Source: Haladaptatus sp. DJG-WS-42
GTDB lineage: Archaea > Halobacteriota > Halobacteria > Halobacteriales > Halococcaceae
NCBI RefSeq assembly: GCF_037198285.1
Contig: NZ_CP147243.1
Span: 1,054,001-1,118,000 of the forward strand
DNA length: 64,000 bases
Reading direction: 5' to 3'
The stretch's first letter is position 1. Every line of letters starts with the position of its first letter. The notes below the pieces were generated by a model. The model did no database searches, had not been told where the DNA came from, and was given only the letters and a program-made list of their open reading frames with translations. Of this stretch, positions 57,456 through 62,024 are shown one piece after another. Position numbers and translations under genes: made by a program.

Positions 57456-57471
57456 CTGAAAAAATTTTCAG
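57456..57471. promoter_or_regulatory. Inverted repeat upstream of first winged-helix regulator
   Basis: CTGAAAAAATTTTCAG is a 7-2-7 inverted repeat ending 35 bases before the ATG at 57507. It overlaps the position expected for a TATA element and may be an autoregulatory site. Confidence 0.4.
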
Positions 57472-57506: not shown

Positions 57507-58421
57507 ATGTCATCTCAGCCCACACCAGAGGATGCGCCAGCCGAGCAGGCGAATCCCTCGATAACCGAACCGGCAGAGGTGTTCGCCACCATCTCGAACG
57601 AGACGCGCCTCGCCATCTTGGAAGCCCTCTGGGAGGCGGAGACGCGACACGTGAGTTTTACTGACCTGAATCGGGCGGTTGGGATGAAAGACTCAGCCCA
57701 ATTCAACTACCATCTGCGCCAACTCCTCGGCCGGTTCGTCCACAAGAGCGACGACGGCTACAAGCTCACCTACGCCGGAAAACACGTCCTCCGGACGCTC
57801 ATCTCGGGACGATTCACCGACCAAATCACCATCGACCCCTTCCCGCTGCCGGGGACGTGCGTCGGCTGTGGTGAACAACTCGTCGCGAGCTACGCAGACG
57901 AGGTGCTGGCCGTCCGGTGCTCGGTCTGCGAACGCCTGCACAGCGGCTATCCGTTCCCGCCCGCGGCCGTCCAAGGGCGCACCCACGAGGAGATGCTGGA
58001 CGGGTACAACCGCTGGGTGCGCCACCTCTACAGCCTCGCCGCGGACGGCGTCTGCCCCGAGTGTGGGAGCCAGATGAAGTCGAAGCTCGTAGACGGCCAA
58101 CAGTGTCTCCCCGAACTCCAGATTGCCGTTGGCCACGAGTGCATGCAGTGTCAATCGCATGTGACCGCCGCCATCGGGATGAATCTACTCTACCAGCCTG
58201 ACGTGGTGAGCTTCTACCGCGACCACGACATCGACCTCGGGAACGTCCCCTACTGGGAGTTGCCGTGGTGCGTCGGTGACGAGCACACGACGGTCATCGG
58301 GGACGACCCGTGGCGCGCTCGCGTCGCCATCACCCTCGGTGACGAGGAACTTCGGGTGACCGTCGATGACCAAATCGCCGTCGTCGCCGTCGAGCGGGCG
58401 AAGCAGTACACCCGCAAATAG
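57507..58421 (+). CDS. Winged-helix regulator with zinc ribbons, tandem copy 1
   Basis: 304 residues. Residues about 25-100 are an ArsR-like winged helix (ISNETRLAILEALW; recognition region MKDSAQFNYHLRQL). A zinc ribbon follows (CVGCGEQL ... CSVCERLHSGYPFPP, about 115-150), then a second set of pairs (CPECGSQM and CMQCQSH) and a C-terminal domain with WCVGDEHTT and DDPWRARV. Homologous along its whole length to the protein encoded at 58851. Followed by a small membrane-protein gene with duplicated upstream sites. Likely a transcription factor; ligand and targets unknown. Confidence 0.85.
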   Translation: MSSQPTPEDAPAEQANPSITEPAEVFATISNETRLAILEALWEAETRHVSFTDLNRAVGMKDSAQFNYHLRQLLGRFVHKSDDGYKLTYAGKHVLRTLISGRFTDQITIDPFPLPGTCVGCGEQLVASYADEVLAVRCSVCERLHSGYPFPPAAVQGRTHEEMLDGYNRWVRHLYSLAADGVCPECGSQMKSKLVDGQQCLPELQIAVGHECMQCQSHVTAAIGMNLLYQPDVVSFYRDHDIDLGNVPYWELPWCVGDEHTTVIGDDPWRARVAITLGDEELRVTVDDQIAVVAVERAKQYTRK

Positions 58422-58431
58422 CTCACTTTTT

Positions 58432-58477
58432 CGACAGAAACGGACTTCAGTATCATCGCTTACAGAAATGTAATTCA
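58432..58477 (+). promoter_or_regulatory. Paired 18-bp sites before small membrane protein 1
   Basis: TTACAGAAATGTAATTCA (58460-58477) contains the inverted repeat TTACA-GAAA-TGTAA. A weaker relative, CGACAGAAACGGACTTCA, lies at 58432-58449, 28 bases upstream (start to start). The same pair with the same spacing occurs before the second membrane-protein gene. Likely operators or activator sites for the adjacent regulators. Confidence 0.65.
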
Positions 58478-58518
58478 GATTACTCTTTTTGCCCTTCCTC
58501 TCCTGTGTTCACCTGTCC

Positions 58519-58785
58519 ATGAAGACCAACACTCGCACCCTGTCTGCCACCCAGTACGCCTACCGCAGACCAGCCCAAACCAAAACAGAGCGGGTGGTCG
58601 CGTACCTCCGCGCTGGGGTCATCGTCCTTGCGCTTGCCGTCGTCCTTGCCGTGCTCGCACTCGGTGTGATTTCGCTCCTCCCCGCCCCGGCCGTGTTCGT
58701 GCTCGGAATGGTTGCCCTCGTCAGTGGCCTCATCCTCGTACCGTTCGCCGCAATCAAACTCGTCGTCGGCGCGATTGACGCATAG
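58519..58785 (+). CDS. Small two-helix membrane protein, tandem copy 1
   Basis: 88 residues from the ATG at 58519 (MKTNTRTLSATQYAY). A polar basic N-terminal 30 residues precede two helices (about 31-53 and 58-82) separated by the short turn LLPAPAVFV. The second small protein (59873) has the same layout and the same LLPAPA turn. No catalytic residues. Starts 41 bases after the 18-bp site. Possibly the main target of the regulator encoded upstream. Confidence 0.75.
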   Translation: MKTNTRTLSATQYAYRRPAQTKTERVVAYLRAGVIVLALAVVLAVLALGVISLLPAPAVFVLGMVALVSGLILVPFAAIKLVVGAIDA

Positions 58786-58794
58786 TCACAAACC

Positions 58795-58812
58795 TTACAA
58801 AAAATTCGTTCA
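58795..58812 (+). promoter_or_regulatory. Degenerate 18-bp site before second regulator
   Basis: TTACAAAAAATTCGTTCA resembles TTACAGAAATGTAATTCA at both ends but has lost the inverted-repeat arm. It lies 38 bases before the ATG at 58851. Weak resemblance; included because of its position. Confidence 0.3.
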
Positions 58813-58850
58813 CTGAAGCTTTTTCGCGGTGGCGTACAATTGTTAACACA

Positions 58851-59762
58851 ATGAAGGAAACCTCTATCCAAGAGTGCGAGGAGTGTCTCGCGCCCGCTGA
58901 GGCGTTTTCTACCATCGCAAACGAGACGCGACTGTCCATCTTAGAAGCCCTCTGGACGGCGCCAGAGCGGCCCGTCACGTTCTCTGAACTCAGGCGGTCG
59001 GTGGGCATGCGCGACTCCGCCCAGTTCAACTACCACCTCGGCAAGCTCACCGGCCACTTCATCACAAAGACCGAAGGCGGCTACGACTTCCGCCACGCGG
59101 GCAAGAAGGTCGTGAGAGCCGTCCTCGAAGGCTCGTTCAACGAAGACCCGGAACTCCCCTCCTTCGGGATTTCCGGAGCGTGTACAGATTGCGGCGCGGG
59201 CCTGCAAGCCGCCTACGCTGACGAGCAAATCACCATCGACTGTACTGCCTGCGGGCGGATTCACTCGCGCTATTCATTCCCACCGGGTGGCCTGAACGAC
59301 CGCACCCGCGAGGAGGTCATGGATGCGTTCAACCAGCGCGTGCGCCACCTCCACTGTCTCGCCGCGGACGGCGTCTGCCCCGAGTGCAACGGCAAGATGG
59401 AAACCACGCTCCGGCGGGCAGAAGAGCCCGACGTTGCCGCCACGGTGTGCGTCGAACACCGCTGTGCGCAGTGTGACCACCGCATCCACTCGACGGCAGG
59501 CCTCAAGCTGCTTGACCACTCTGATGTGGTCACGTTCCACCGCACCCACGGCATCGACCTCTGTGCGACGCCGTACTGGGAGTTCGCGTGGTGCGTCTCT
59601 GACGAGCACACGACCATCCTATCTTCCGACCCGTGGTCGATTCGCGTGACGATTCCGCTCGACGACGAGGAACTGCGCGTCACGATGGACGGCGACCTGA
59701 CCGTGACCGACGTCGAAACGTTCCCGACGGGCACGCCCGCAGACTCGCGGACGACCGCCTAA
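58851..59762 (+). CDS. Winged-helix regulator with zinc ribbons, tandem copy 2
   Basis: 303 residues, a paralogue of 57507-58421. Same order of parts: winged helix (IANETRLSILEALW, MRDSAQFNYHLGKL), zinc ribbon (CTDCGAGL and CTACGRIHSRYSFPP), second pairs (CPECNGKM and CAQCDHR), then WCVSDEHTT and SDPWSIRV near the end. The DNA-reading helix is nearly the same in both, so the two may share sites, while the wing and the middle domain differ more. Acts with the small membrane protein downstream, by context. Confidence 0.85.
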   Translation: MKETSIQECEECLAPAEAFSTIANETRLSILEALWTAPERPVTFSELRRSVGMRDSAQFNYHLGKLTGHFITKTEGGYDFRHAGKKVVRAVLEGSFNEDPELPSFGISGACTDCGAGLQAAYADEQITIDCTACGRIHSRYSFPPGGLNDRTREEVMDAFNQRVRHLHCLAADGVCPECNGKMETTLRRAEEPDVAATVCVEHRCAQCDHRIHSTAGLKLLDHSDVVTFHRTHGIDLCATPYWEFAWCVSDEHTTILSSDPWSIRVTIPLDDEELRVTMDGDLTVTDVETFPTGTPADSRTTA

Positions 59763-59775
59763 ACGGACAGAATTT

Positions 59776-59821
59776 TTACAGAAGTGCGATTCAGTACGGC
59801 CGCTTACAGAAATGTAATTCA
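59776..59821 (+). promoter_or_regulatory. Paired 18-bp sites before small membrane protein 2
   Basis: TTACAGAAATGTAATTCA (59804-59821) is identical to the site at 58460-58477, and both are preceded by CGC. A relative, TTACAGAAGTGCGATTCA, lies at 59776-59793, again 28 bases upstream. CATATATG, a likely TATA element, follows at 59827-59834. Confidence 0.65.
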
Positions 59822-59872
59822 AGAATCATATATGGTCGCACAACGCCTTCTCTCAGATGAGGAAAACAACCC

Positions 59873-60118
59873 ATGGCCGCATCCAACCCACAGCTGTCAT
59901 CTGCGACCCGACTGGCACCGAGAACGCCCGCTGACGCCGCCGCAGACGTGCTGGTCACGCTGCTCCTGGTGACCCTCGCGTTCGCGGCCCTCGTCGCGGT
60001 CGCCGTGGTCGCCACGGCCCTCCTGCCTGCACCGGCACTGTTCGTGTTACTGTGGGTTGGCGCCGTTGCTGGCCTCTTTGCACTCCCGCTGGCCGTGGGT
60101 TCATTCCTCGCTCGATAA
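59873..60118 (+). CDS. Small two-helix membrane protein, tandem copy 2
   Basis: 81 residues. Polar N terminus (MAASNPQLSSATRLAPRTPA), helix 1 about 26-49, the turn LLPAPALFVL, helix 2 about 53-77. Same architecture as the 88-residue protein at 58519. Start ATG lies 51 bases after the 18-bp site. Function unknown. Confidence 0.75.
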   Translation: MAASNPQLSSATRLAPRTPADAAADVLVTLLLVTLAFAALVAVAVVATALLPAPALFVLLWVGAVAGLFALPLAVGSFLAR

Positions 60119-60157: not shown

Positions 60158-60841
60158 ATGGCATTCGACGCAGGCCGAGTCACGACCGTTACCTTCGATT
60201 CGTACAGCACCATCGTTGACGTAGACGCCGCAGAGCAGGCGCTCGCAGACCGCGTTTCGACTCCCGAACCCGTCTCCAAACTCTGGCGGGCGCGCTCGAT
60301 TGAGTACACCATGGTGGCGAACTTCGTCGACGCCTACCAGCCCTTCTACGAGATGAACCGCGACGCCCTCCAGTACGCACTGGACGTCCACGGCGTCGAT
60401 ATTTCGACCGACGAGCGCGACGAAATCCTCGCCGTCTACCACGAACTCGACGTGTTCGACGACGTGCGCGACGGGATCCAGCGGCTCAAAAATGGCGGCT
60501 ACGACTGCTATGTCGTCTCCAACGGGAACCCCGAGATGCTCGCCTCGATGGTCTCCCACGCCGACATCGGCGACCTGCTTACTGACACGATTTCCGCCCA
60601 CGAAGTGGAGACGTTCAAGCCGGATGCCGAGATTTATCGGCACGCCGCTGGGCGAACCGGGACACCAATCAAAGAGATTGCGCACGTTTCGGCTGGCTGG
60701 TTCGACGTGATGGGCGCACAACACGCCGGAATGCAGGGCGTCTGGGTCGACCGGAAGGGCACGCCCTACGAGACCTTCGGCGGCGACCCCGACTTGACGA
60801 TTGAGACCTTCTACGAATTGGCCGAGGAACTGGGCGTCTAG
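60158..60841 (+). CDS. HAD-superfamily hydrolase, haloacid dehalogenase type II-like
   Basis: 227 residues. Motif I is VTFDSYSTIVDVD near residue 12, where the first Asp is the nucleophile; the second position is Ser rather than the Asp found in phosphatases, which points to the dehalogenase branch. SNGNPEML is motif II, the Lys in EVETFKPDAEIY motif III, and VSAGWFDVMGAQHAGM motif IV. Cytosolic; it probably acts on a small organic halide or is a general HAD enzyme. Confidence 0.88.
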   Translation: MAFDAGRVTTVTFDSYSTIVDVDAAEQALADRVSTPEPVSKLWRARSIEYTMVANFVDAYQPFYEMNRDALQYALDVHGVDISTDERDEILAVYHELDVFDDVRDGIQRLKNGGYDCYVVSNGNPEMLASMVSHADIGDLLTDTISAHEVETFKPDAEIYRHAAGRTGTPIKEIAHVSAGWFDVMGAQHAGMQGVWVDRKGTPYETFGGDPDLTIETFYELAEELGV

Positions 60842-60965: not shown

Positions 60966-61058
60966 GGGCTTTCGAGGCGTTTGAGTTATTGTTAGCGTGT
61001 TTTGCAGAGTTACCGTCTAGCACGAGGTTTTTCCTCACCACGAACCAAGCAACCCCAT

Positions 61059-62024
61059 ATGTCCGAGTTTGCGTTCGAGGTGGCCCTCTGTGCCCTCCTT
61101 GAGCGCGAGCGAGACGAGATTATCGCCCGCCAACTCGGCGCGAGCGTCCACGGGCGGCGCATCATGGACATCATCTGCGTCGAACCCGGCCCCGCGTTCG
61201 AGAAACGGGCGGCCATCACGCCTCACGAGATTCCCGAGGCGGCCATCGAAAGTCGCGCGGGAGTGGGCCAAGCCCGGTATTATCGAAACTGCTTCGATAT
61301 GCACCCTGACCGGGCGCGGAGCGTCGCAGAGCGTGCCATCGAGATTGGCTTTTTCGAGCGCGTGCGCCGAGGGTCGCGCCTCTACGTCCGACAGACGGCG
61401 CGGTATCCCGACGACTGGTTCGGCAAGTTGGTCGGCATCGAGAACAAGCCAGACCTTGCTGTGCCGGGTGATTTGGAACTCCAGTTGCGCAAAGACGTGT
61501 CCCTCGGCGTGTTCGACGAGGTAATTCTCGCCACCGAATCCTACGTCACCGGCGCGCACTTGAACAGAATCCCCGAGGAAGTGGGCGTGTGGCGGTTTCG
61601 ACCGGAAACGGGGGGCCTCGAAGTCATCCGTGAACCGACGCCGCTTGACCCCGCTGCATCGGGCGTGGATATCGTCGATGCGTACACCGGGCGAACCGAC
61701 ATGCAGGTTGCGACGGCGGCCGAAAAGGCCAGACTCCGCCGCCGGATGGCCGAGCGGGCGTATGGCAAGGGGTGGCGGAGTTTTTCGCTTCCGGCGTGTG
61801 TCCACGGGGCGGCGAGAACGGTTGCCGGAGCCGAAGGCATCCCCTACTGCGAGTGGAAAGATTCCGTGGTGAATCCGACAGACGAGTGCGGCCCGGCGTG
61901 TCCGGGCTACGAACCCGCAGAGCCGCCCGAAGTGGACGTCGAAGCCGTCCGCGACAGTCGGACGCCGTGGGTCGCAAAGCCAAAAGGCCCGCGCACCCAG
62001 AGCGGGCTCGACCGCTTTCTATAG
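61059..62024 (+). CDS. DUF5787 family protein
   Basis: 321 residues from the ATG at 61059 (MSEFAFEVALCALLER). The blocks ARQLGASVHGRRIMDIICVEPGPAF, WFGKLVGIENKPDLAVPGDLELQL (landmark GIENKPDL) and a Cys-rich end (ACVHGAAR, YCEWKD, CGPACPGY) are typical of haloarchaeal DUF5787. The order D...E-N-K resembles the D-ExK core of restriction-like nucleases, and the C-terminal cysteines could bind an Fe-S cluster or zinc. Both are inferences. Overlaps the convergent hydrolase gene by 6 bases. Confidence 0.83.
   Translation: MSEFAFEVALCALLERERDEIIARQLGASVHGRRIMDIICVEPGPAFEKRAAITPHEIPEAAIESRAGVGQARYYRNCFDMHPDRARSVAERAIEIGFFERVRRGSRLYVRQTARYPDDWFGKLVGIENKPDLAVPGDLELQLRKDVSLGVFDEVILATESYVTGAHLNRIPEEVGVWRFRPETGGLEVIREPTPLDPAASGVDIVDAYTGRTDMQVATAAEKARLRRRMAERAYGKGWRSFSLPACVHGAARTVAGAEGIPYCEWKDSVVNPTDECGPACPGYEPAEPPEVDVEAVRDSRTPWVAKPKGPRTQSGLDRFL

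Follow-up and report, generated by a model that had tools for sequence, protein, structure and literature searches.

Local, autoregulated winged-helix factors with palindromic operators beside the BRE are an already known kind of system. TFB-RF1 of Pyrococcus furiosus, in the available part of its description, has a palindromic TCTG-N5-CAGA element just upstream of the BRE/TATA, activates by TFB recruitment, and was found to bind the promoter region that includes its own gene as well as a membrane transporter operon (PMC5937170). The GvpE UAS of haloarchaea is presented, in the accessible portion of the source, as an activator element that adjoins the BRE and for which a close UAS–BRE distance is essential (PMC4390858). 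For CsmR of Haloferax volcanii, the available text gives a semi-palindromic TATCA-N4-TGATA element beside the BRE/TATA (PMC13286277).

Here we describe palindromic sites in Haladaptatus sp. DJG-WS-42, within a window of 64,000 nt (1054001–1118000 of one 2.78 Mb contig) that is best explained as carrying two copies of a cassette derived from an old duplication. Judging from the sequence elements themselves, how they are spaced and conserved, and how they associate with DUF7351 genes, we estimate a probability of roughly 0.84 that the sites are operators of the DUF7347-DUF7351 proteins, which would bind them as dimers and control their own gene and the neighboring small membrane-protein gene. 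Like TFB-RF1, this system combines a palindromic site upstream of the BRE/TATA with an own-gene promoter and a predicted membrane-protein target; in contrast, a single site per promoter is described in the available TFB-RF1 text, versus a 28-bp pair here. The sites adjoin the BRE at close distance, as does the GvpE UAS; however, the latter is a 20-nt element of two 8-nt parts and GvpE, as far as the accessible account goes, resembles leucine-zipper rather than winged-helix proteins. CsmR also has a semi-palindromic site beside the BRE/TATA in a haloarchaeon, but its motif is different, its regulon is large (65 peaks, with motility and shape genes), and the portion of the text available names no DUF (PMC13286277). 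The ArsR/SmtB regulators (HTH_20, NF033788) share a weak N-terminal winged-helix likeness with DUF7347, whereas the proteins described here carry a DUF7351 domain with two Cys4 zinc-ribbon-like motifs and fall below the NF033788 cut-off. No arsenic or metal genes were noticed beside DUF7351 cassettes. The open-licence literature yielded no report on DUF7351, DUF7347 or this motif, and within it neither the DUF7347-DUF7351 family nor its operator, nor the strict double-site design, appears to have been described.

Two cassettes and their promoter elements

The elements of the two cassettes, numbered from the first letter of the window, are as follows.

57456–57471, + strand: predicted single operator CTGAAAAAATTTTCAG in the regulator 1 promoter, followed by the TATA-like gcaagACCTTAg
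57507–58421, + strand: regulator 1, DUF7347 winged HTH plus DUF7351, 304 aa (PF24038, E 6.1e-32; PF24042, E 3.1e-63)
58435–58450, + strand: predicted distal operator of pair 1, CAGAAACGGACTTCAG (order-wide core and minimal-pair genome scan)
58463–58478, + strand: predicted proximal operator of pair 1, CAGAAATGTAATTCAG, overlapping TTACAGAAATGTAATTCA (core and genome scans)
58484–58490, + strand: TATA-like box TCTTTTT of small gene 1 (fixed offset; zero mismatches in the TATA-anchored scan)
58519–58785, + strand: small two-TM protein 1, 88 aa, without a Pfam family (third-codon-position bias)
58798–58813, + strand: predicted degenerate single operator CAAAAAATTCGTTCAC before regulator 2 (two mismatches in the TATA-anchored scan)
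58851–59762, + strand: regulator 2, DUF7347 winged HTH plus DUF7351, 303 aa (PF24038, E 2.4e-34; PF24042, E 3e-70)
59779–59794, + strand: predicted distal operator of pair 2, CAGAAGTGCGATTCAG (pair scans of genome and order)
59807–59822, + strand: predicted proximal operator of pair 2, CAGAAATGTAATTCAA (genome and order pair scans)
59828–59834, + strand: TATA-like box ATATATG of small gene 2 (TATA-anchored scan and relatives)
59873–60118, + strand: small two-TM protein 2, 81 aa (42% identity to small protein 1 over residues 3–78)

The 18-mer TTACAGAAATGTAATTCA is present at 58460–58477 and again at 59804–59821 with zero mismatches, and each copy is preceded by a weaker partner 28 bp upstream (cgACAGAAACGGACTTCA at 58432 and TTACAGAAGTGCGATTCA at 59776), just as the first-pass annotation of this DNA had reported. 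When the genome (2,782,331 bases) was scanned with up to two mismatches, these two were the only matches and the reversed control pattern had none; the random scatter that the same annotation had named as refuting evidence was not seen. A looser form, TTACANNNNTGTAATTCA, gave four matches in the window at up to three mismatches, against 0.63 expected, a count reached by 1 of 100 shuffles. The proposal that 28 bp lies near a multiple of the helical turn fails because 28 bp corresponds to 2.67 turns at 10.5 bp per turn; the spacing itself is nonetheless strict.

Both regulator genes also have a site in their own promoter. Only a degenerate copy before regulator 2, at 58795, had been recorded previously; this copy is real but is a variant of a different site type, namely CAAAAAATTCGTTCAC, and it is followed by CTTTTT at the same offset as the TATA-like boxes. 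In the relative G002 the left half of this site is lost and TTCACTGAA-n-CTTTTT is kept. The site before regulator 1, CTGAAAAAATTTTCAG, had been missed. It is a perfect palindrome and the sole exact CTGAA-N6-TTCAG in the genome.

Downstream of the cassettes lie an HAD-like ORF (60158–60841) and a second ORF (61002–62024). By eye, ORFs resembling these two follow the regulator in loci L029/L030 and L006/L028, and this neighborhood appears partly conserved across the order.

Conserved core of the site and age of the duplication

The element that recurs at orthologous loci chosen by protein is CWGAA-N6-TTCAG, present twice at a distance of 28 bp and followed by a TATA-like box. Among 30 such loci (own locus included; 60 genomes searched) it follows the regulator in many, mostly without TTACA-GAAA-TGTAA; one example chosen by protein alone reads TTACAGAAATGATTTTCAG, with TTACA-GAAA-TGTAA not conserved. 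An order-wide profile built from 82 of 97 sites, near copies having been removed, reads roughly TACwGAA-N6-TTCAGTA ... TTACAGAAATrT-NN-TTCAGATTACACTTAT. The pattern used to select the sites (up to one mismatch) included GAA and TTCAG, and their high scores in the profile are partly by construction; TAC before GAA, TA after TTCAG and ATTACACTTAT lie outside the selecting pattern and are free results. About 6 bp separate the end of the paired sites from the TATA-like box, whose offset after TTCAG is fixed. Thus the site lies directly upstream of the BRE/TATA at a fixed distance, in the pair promoters as seen in the profile and in the own promoters of protein-chosen regulators. In the stretch that leads from the TATA-like box to the start codon, the profile (positions +56 to +67) shows conserved letters as well, namely G at 56, C at 65 and T at 67, as if the initiation region had a further signal.

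The first-pass annotation had placed the conserved part of the site elsewhere, in the inner palindrome TTACA-GAAA-TGTAA. That palindrome is exact in both 18-mers, and the TAC of its left arm is well conserved, but in the 82 non-redundant sites its right arm scores 0.82/0.56/0.80/0.41/0.48 by position. The drop to 0.41–0.48 at its end is likewise a free result of the profile. Moreover, TGTAA is absent from the distal and own-promoter sites, and at the CTGAAAAAATTTTCAG site in G002 both outer arms, CTGAA and TTCAG, are intact although the 6-bp centre differs. We consider it very unlikely that TTACA-GAAA-TGTAA is the operator, and the orthologous loci together with the order-wide profile led us to drop TTACA-N4-TGTAA as the core; by these sequence comparisons, the order-wide conserved core is CWGAA-N6-TTCAG.

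True TTCTG sites are few (L118, L123, L130, L145 and L170); several other TTCTG readings come from pairs that were read on the strand opposite to a divergent regulator. The recognition-helix class (DSAQ or DSGQ) did not separate cleanly with half-site type, and several DSGQ regulators adjoin TTCAG sites. Variant pairs with TTGAA-N6-TTCAAA proximal sites lie beside divergently oriented DUF7351 genes (G029:C17:2495, G029:C32:1076 and G045:C77:50981), which suggests paralogue-specific half-sites.

Could the identical 18-mers be a functionless remnant of a recent duplication? The cassette is indeed duplicated, with the regulators 49% identical over the matched part and the small proteins 42% identical (E 5.9e-6). 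However, sequence comparisons indicate that the duplication is old. G002 also has both copies, and in a quick tree the two regulator types are separate, the regulator 1 type (L004, L005) grouping with a Halogranum protein; the tree (148 of 149 regulators, one with a core below 200 residues having been dropped) has modest support and some long branches, which makes its fine detail unsafe. Regulator 2 is 52–70% identical to 38 proteins of other genera, versus 47% to regulator 1, and thus appears closer than regulator 1 to the order-wide protein form. The sites, moreover, persist across the order while their flanks change. We therefore give the remnant explanation virtually no weight; with a duplication of this age, it is constraint that keeps the 18-mers identical, and they are no fresh copy.

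Association of the site pair with DUF7351 genes and small membrane proteins

A scan of the whole genome (2.78 Mb) for the minimal pair, GAA-N6-TTC twice at 28 bp, gave three exact occurrences, each of them 17–61 bp after a DUF7351 match from a separate protein search. Eight further places appear at one mismatch, which we take as chance. All four DUF7351 genes of the genome are involved with sites. Upstream of the fourth lies a cupin-like gene; in its promoter there is a proximal site together with a distal half-site. In coordinates, the cupin-like locus and the fourth DUF7351 gene after it span G000:C1:1953296-1955032 (L119, L261), and the third DUF7351 gene (G000:C1:1508606-1509535; L118, L260) is followed by a pair with TTCTG right arms and then by a 412-aa transporter-like ORF. 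The TATA-anchored scan of the same genome gave 20 forward and 3 reverse matches (control, 5 and 5), many of the lesser ones looking like chance; of ten whose contexts were read, two were module sites beside DUF7351 genes. A lone own-promoter-type site, CAAAAATCGGGTTCAGCGAACGGTTAT, at G000:C1:2301211-2301237 (L279) stands just before an ORF that by eye is Rieske-type-like and is a possible further target.

Across 60 genomes, own included, the pair with its TATA-like box had 24 exact matches and the control none. Nineteen of these lie within 400 bp of an independently found DUF7351 match, three lie 1.1–2.2 kb away, and two have none on the contig. A stricter search of the order (up to one mismatch) found the pair in 150 of 392 genomes, with the reversed-pattern control at 0 in every row. 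DUF7351 is present in 337 of the 392 sampled genomes, and the family also occurs in the laboratory strain Haloferax volcanii; the pair occurs in 150 of these 337 (187 lack it at this threshold) versus 0 of the 55 without DUF7351, in a comparison uncorrected for kinship and with 35 of the 55 assigned by absence from the match list.

Starting instead from the proteins, 149 regulators were assembled from separate searches that yielded 30, 15, 40 and 80 loci, the helix DSAQFNY being over-represented since it was in the patterns that yielded the 80. They comprise 181 distinct regulators minus 32 that had been found by motif or filed under L001/L002, with the two in the window left out; an earlier step had removed duplicates with identical cores and regulators whose matched core was shorter than 150 residues. 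A pair lies downstream in 50 (up to three mismatches; control 0) and a single site upstream in 39 (up to one mismatch; control 1), the upstream sites in other genomes being mostly at the same distance from the TATA-like box. Within 400 bp downstream, 99 of the 149 have no pair, and 72 have neither a downstream pair nor an upstream single site. Where site pairs follow these regulators, the spacing is 28 in 51 of 58; the control pattern gave no pairs.

These searches bear on two further explanations. In one, the block would be no more than an unusual core promoter, a BRE/TATA context for a special TFB without a regulator operator, and the contact of the proximal site with the BRE region and its fixed TATA distance would agree with this. 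Core promoters, however, do not need a distal palindrome 28 bp further out, and the pair tracks DUF7351 genes, so this explanation is exceedingly improbable. In the other, a different transcription factor would bind the sites, both genes, for DUF7351 and for the small membrane protein, merely being its targets. Many pairs do stand before a small membrane gene although the 1.5–2 kb of fetched flank contains no DUF7351 gene, and binding by DUF7351 is itself a prediction. Against a different factor stand the lack of any pair in the 55 genomes without DUF7351, the involvement of every DUF7351 gene of the Haladaptatus genome, and the occurrence of pairs next to various DUF7351 paralogues, be the layout tandem, divergent or convergent. 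We regard it as unlikely. The missing elements, the distant pairs and the lack of a clean helix code fit paralogues with other sites and genome-spread regulons, but a third factor would be compatible with them too. That selection has kept these sites for protein binding by the adjacent regulators, as the first-pass annotation had proposed, is well supported by the independent searches, the binding being predicted.

A small membrane ORF, of up to 130 aa, whose start codon falls at +34 to +51 and which has one or more hydrophobic stretches, follows the pair at 100 of 118 sites, versus 0.7% of 1751 control positions. More loosely, an ORF starting within 130 bp has a hydrophobic stretch at 108 of the 118 and two or more at 95; among the 118, all kept in the count, a few gave matches to both strands (L103, L105, L108, L116) and a few others probably matched by chance (L098, L109, L135). 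The exceptions, named by eye, include transporter-like (L072, L075, L095), reductase-like (L081) and ABC-type (L088) ORFs. Differences among three genomes of the genus fall mostly at third codon positions in the small proteins of the window; because of this and their mutual relationship, the small proteins look like real genes. None of those checked matched a Pfam or NCBIfam family above the cut-off. The promoter signature picks out 101 distinct small membrane-protein ORFs in the fetched DNA. A C-terminal CxP-like tail was considered as a family mark and rejected, being present in just 10 of the 101.

The regulators and a model of their action

Both window regulators score above the gathering thresholds for PF24038 and PF24042, in that order. 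Eight cysteines (C111, C114, C131, C134, C176, C179, C205 and C208) are invariant in 40 alignment rows and form two CxxC...CxxC motifs, which suggests that the DUF7351 domain holds two zinc-ribbon-like Cys4 motifs. In an AlphaFold2 model of regulator 2 (mean pLDDT 84.5), a winged HTH spans residues 15–92 with helix 56–66 in the recognition position, and two regions after it contain the eight invariant cysteines. Foldseek with this model returned zero matches at E 0.001 or better, and only its winged helix matched plausible folds, with weak E-values, among them the CggR DNA-binding domain and an ArsR repressor (6j05_B; probability 0.99, E 0.1). A sequence search of solved structures gave no useful match. 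The N-terminal winged helix has weak but detectable similarity to HTH_20/NF033788, with both window regulators missing the NF033788 cut-off (24.9 and 20.6 bits versus 55), and its modelled secondary structure is consistent with the winged-helix DNA-binding fold of ArsR/SmtB proteins. The regulator orthologue in Halocatena pleomorpha (L217) has an in-frame stop in this assembly, and the second regulator of the closest relative (L004 in G001; L120) is broken, as it lacks an internal part of DUF7351 and has a stop in the matched stretch, while its operator pair and small membrane gene are still kept.

In the arrangement that we favor, one regulator dimer would recognize the inverted repeat CWGAA-N6-TTCAG, in which the distance between half-sites, about one helical turn, is what a single dimer would need. 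Two dimers would sit 28 bp apart before the small membrane-protein gene, the inner of the two ending some 6 bp short of the TATA-like box, and one dimer would occupy the same place in the regulator's own promoter. Each regulator thus probably controls itself and the neighboring small membrane protein. As to the sign of control, the anatomy leans slightly toward activation through help in TFB recruitment, because TFB-RF1 and GvpE likewise act from a position upstream of the TATA-like box; repression, with TFB blocked, would fit almost equally well. As for the signal, the obvious candidates are the zinc-ribbon-like domain and the membrane protein.

A wider reading, which we offer as a tentative possibility, is that the whole family keeps to one rigid design of two GAA-N6-TTC dimers, 28 bp apart and locked to the TATA box, in which paralogues differ only in the letters that flank it (TTCAG, TTCTG, or TTGAA/TTCAAA), and that small membrane hairpins of no known family are the targets of most members. 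If so, these systems may respond to membrane state, with the small protein feeding back on its regulator. For the DUF7347-DUF7351 proteins themselves, widespread archaeal regulators so far listed just as domains of unknown function, our analysis provides a predicted operator, predicted targets and predicted autoregulation. The promoter signature also reveals small membrane-protein ORFs that are easily overlooked in annotation and that, where checked, belong to no sequence family. Finally, because the spacing of 28 bp is strict and locked to the TATA box, the question of activation or repression at an archaeal promoter can be put to a direct test.
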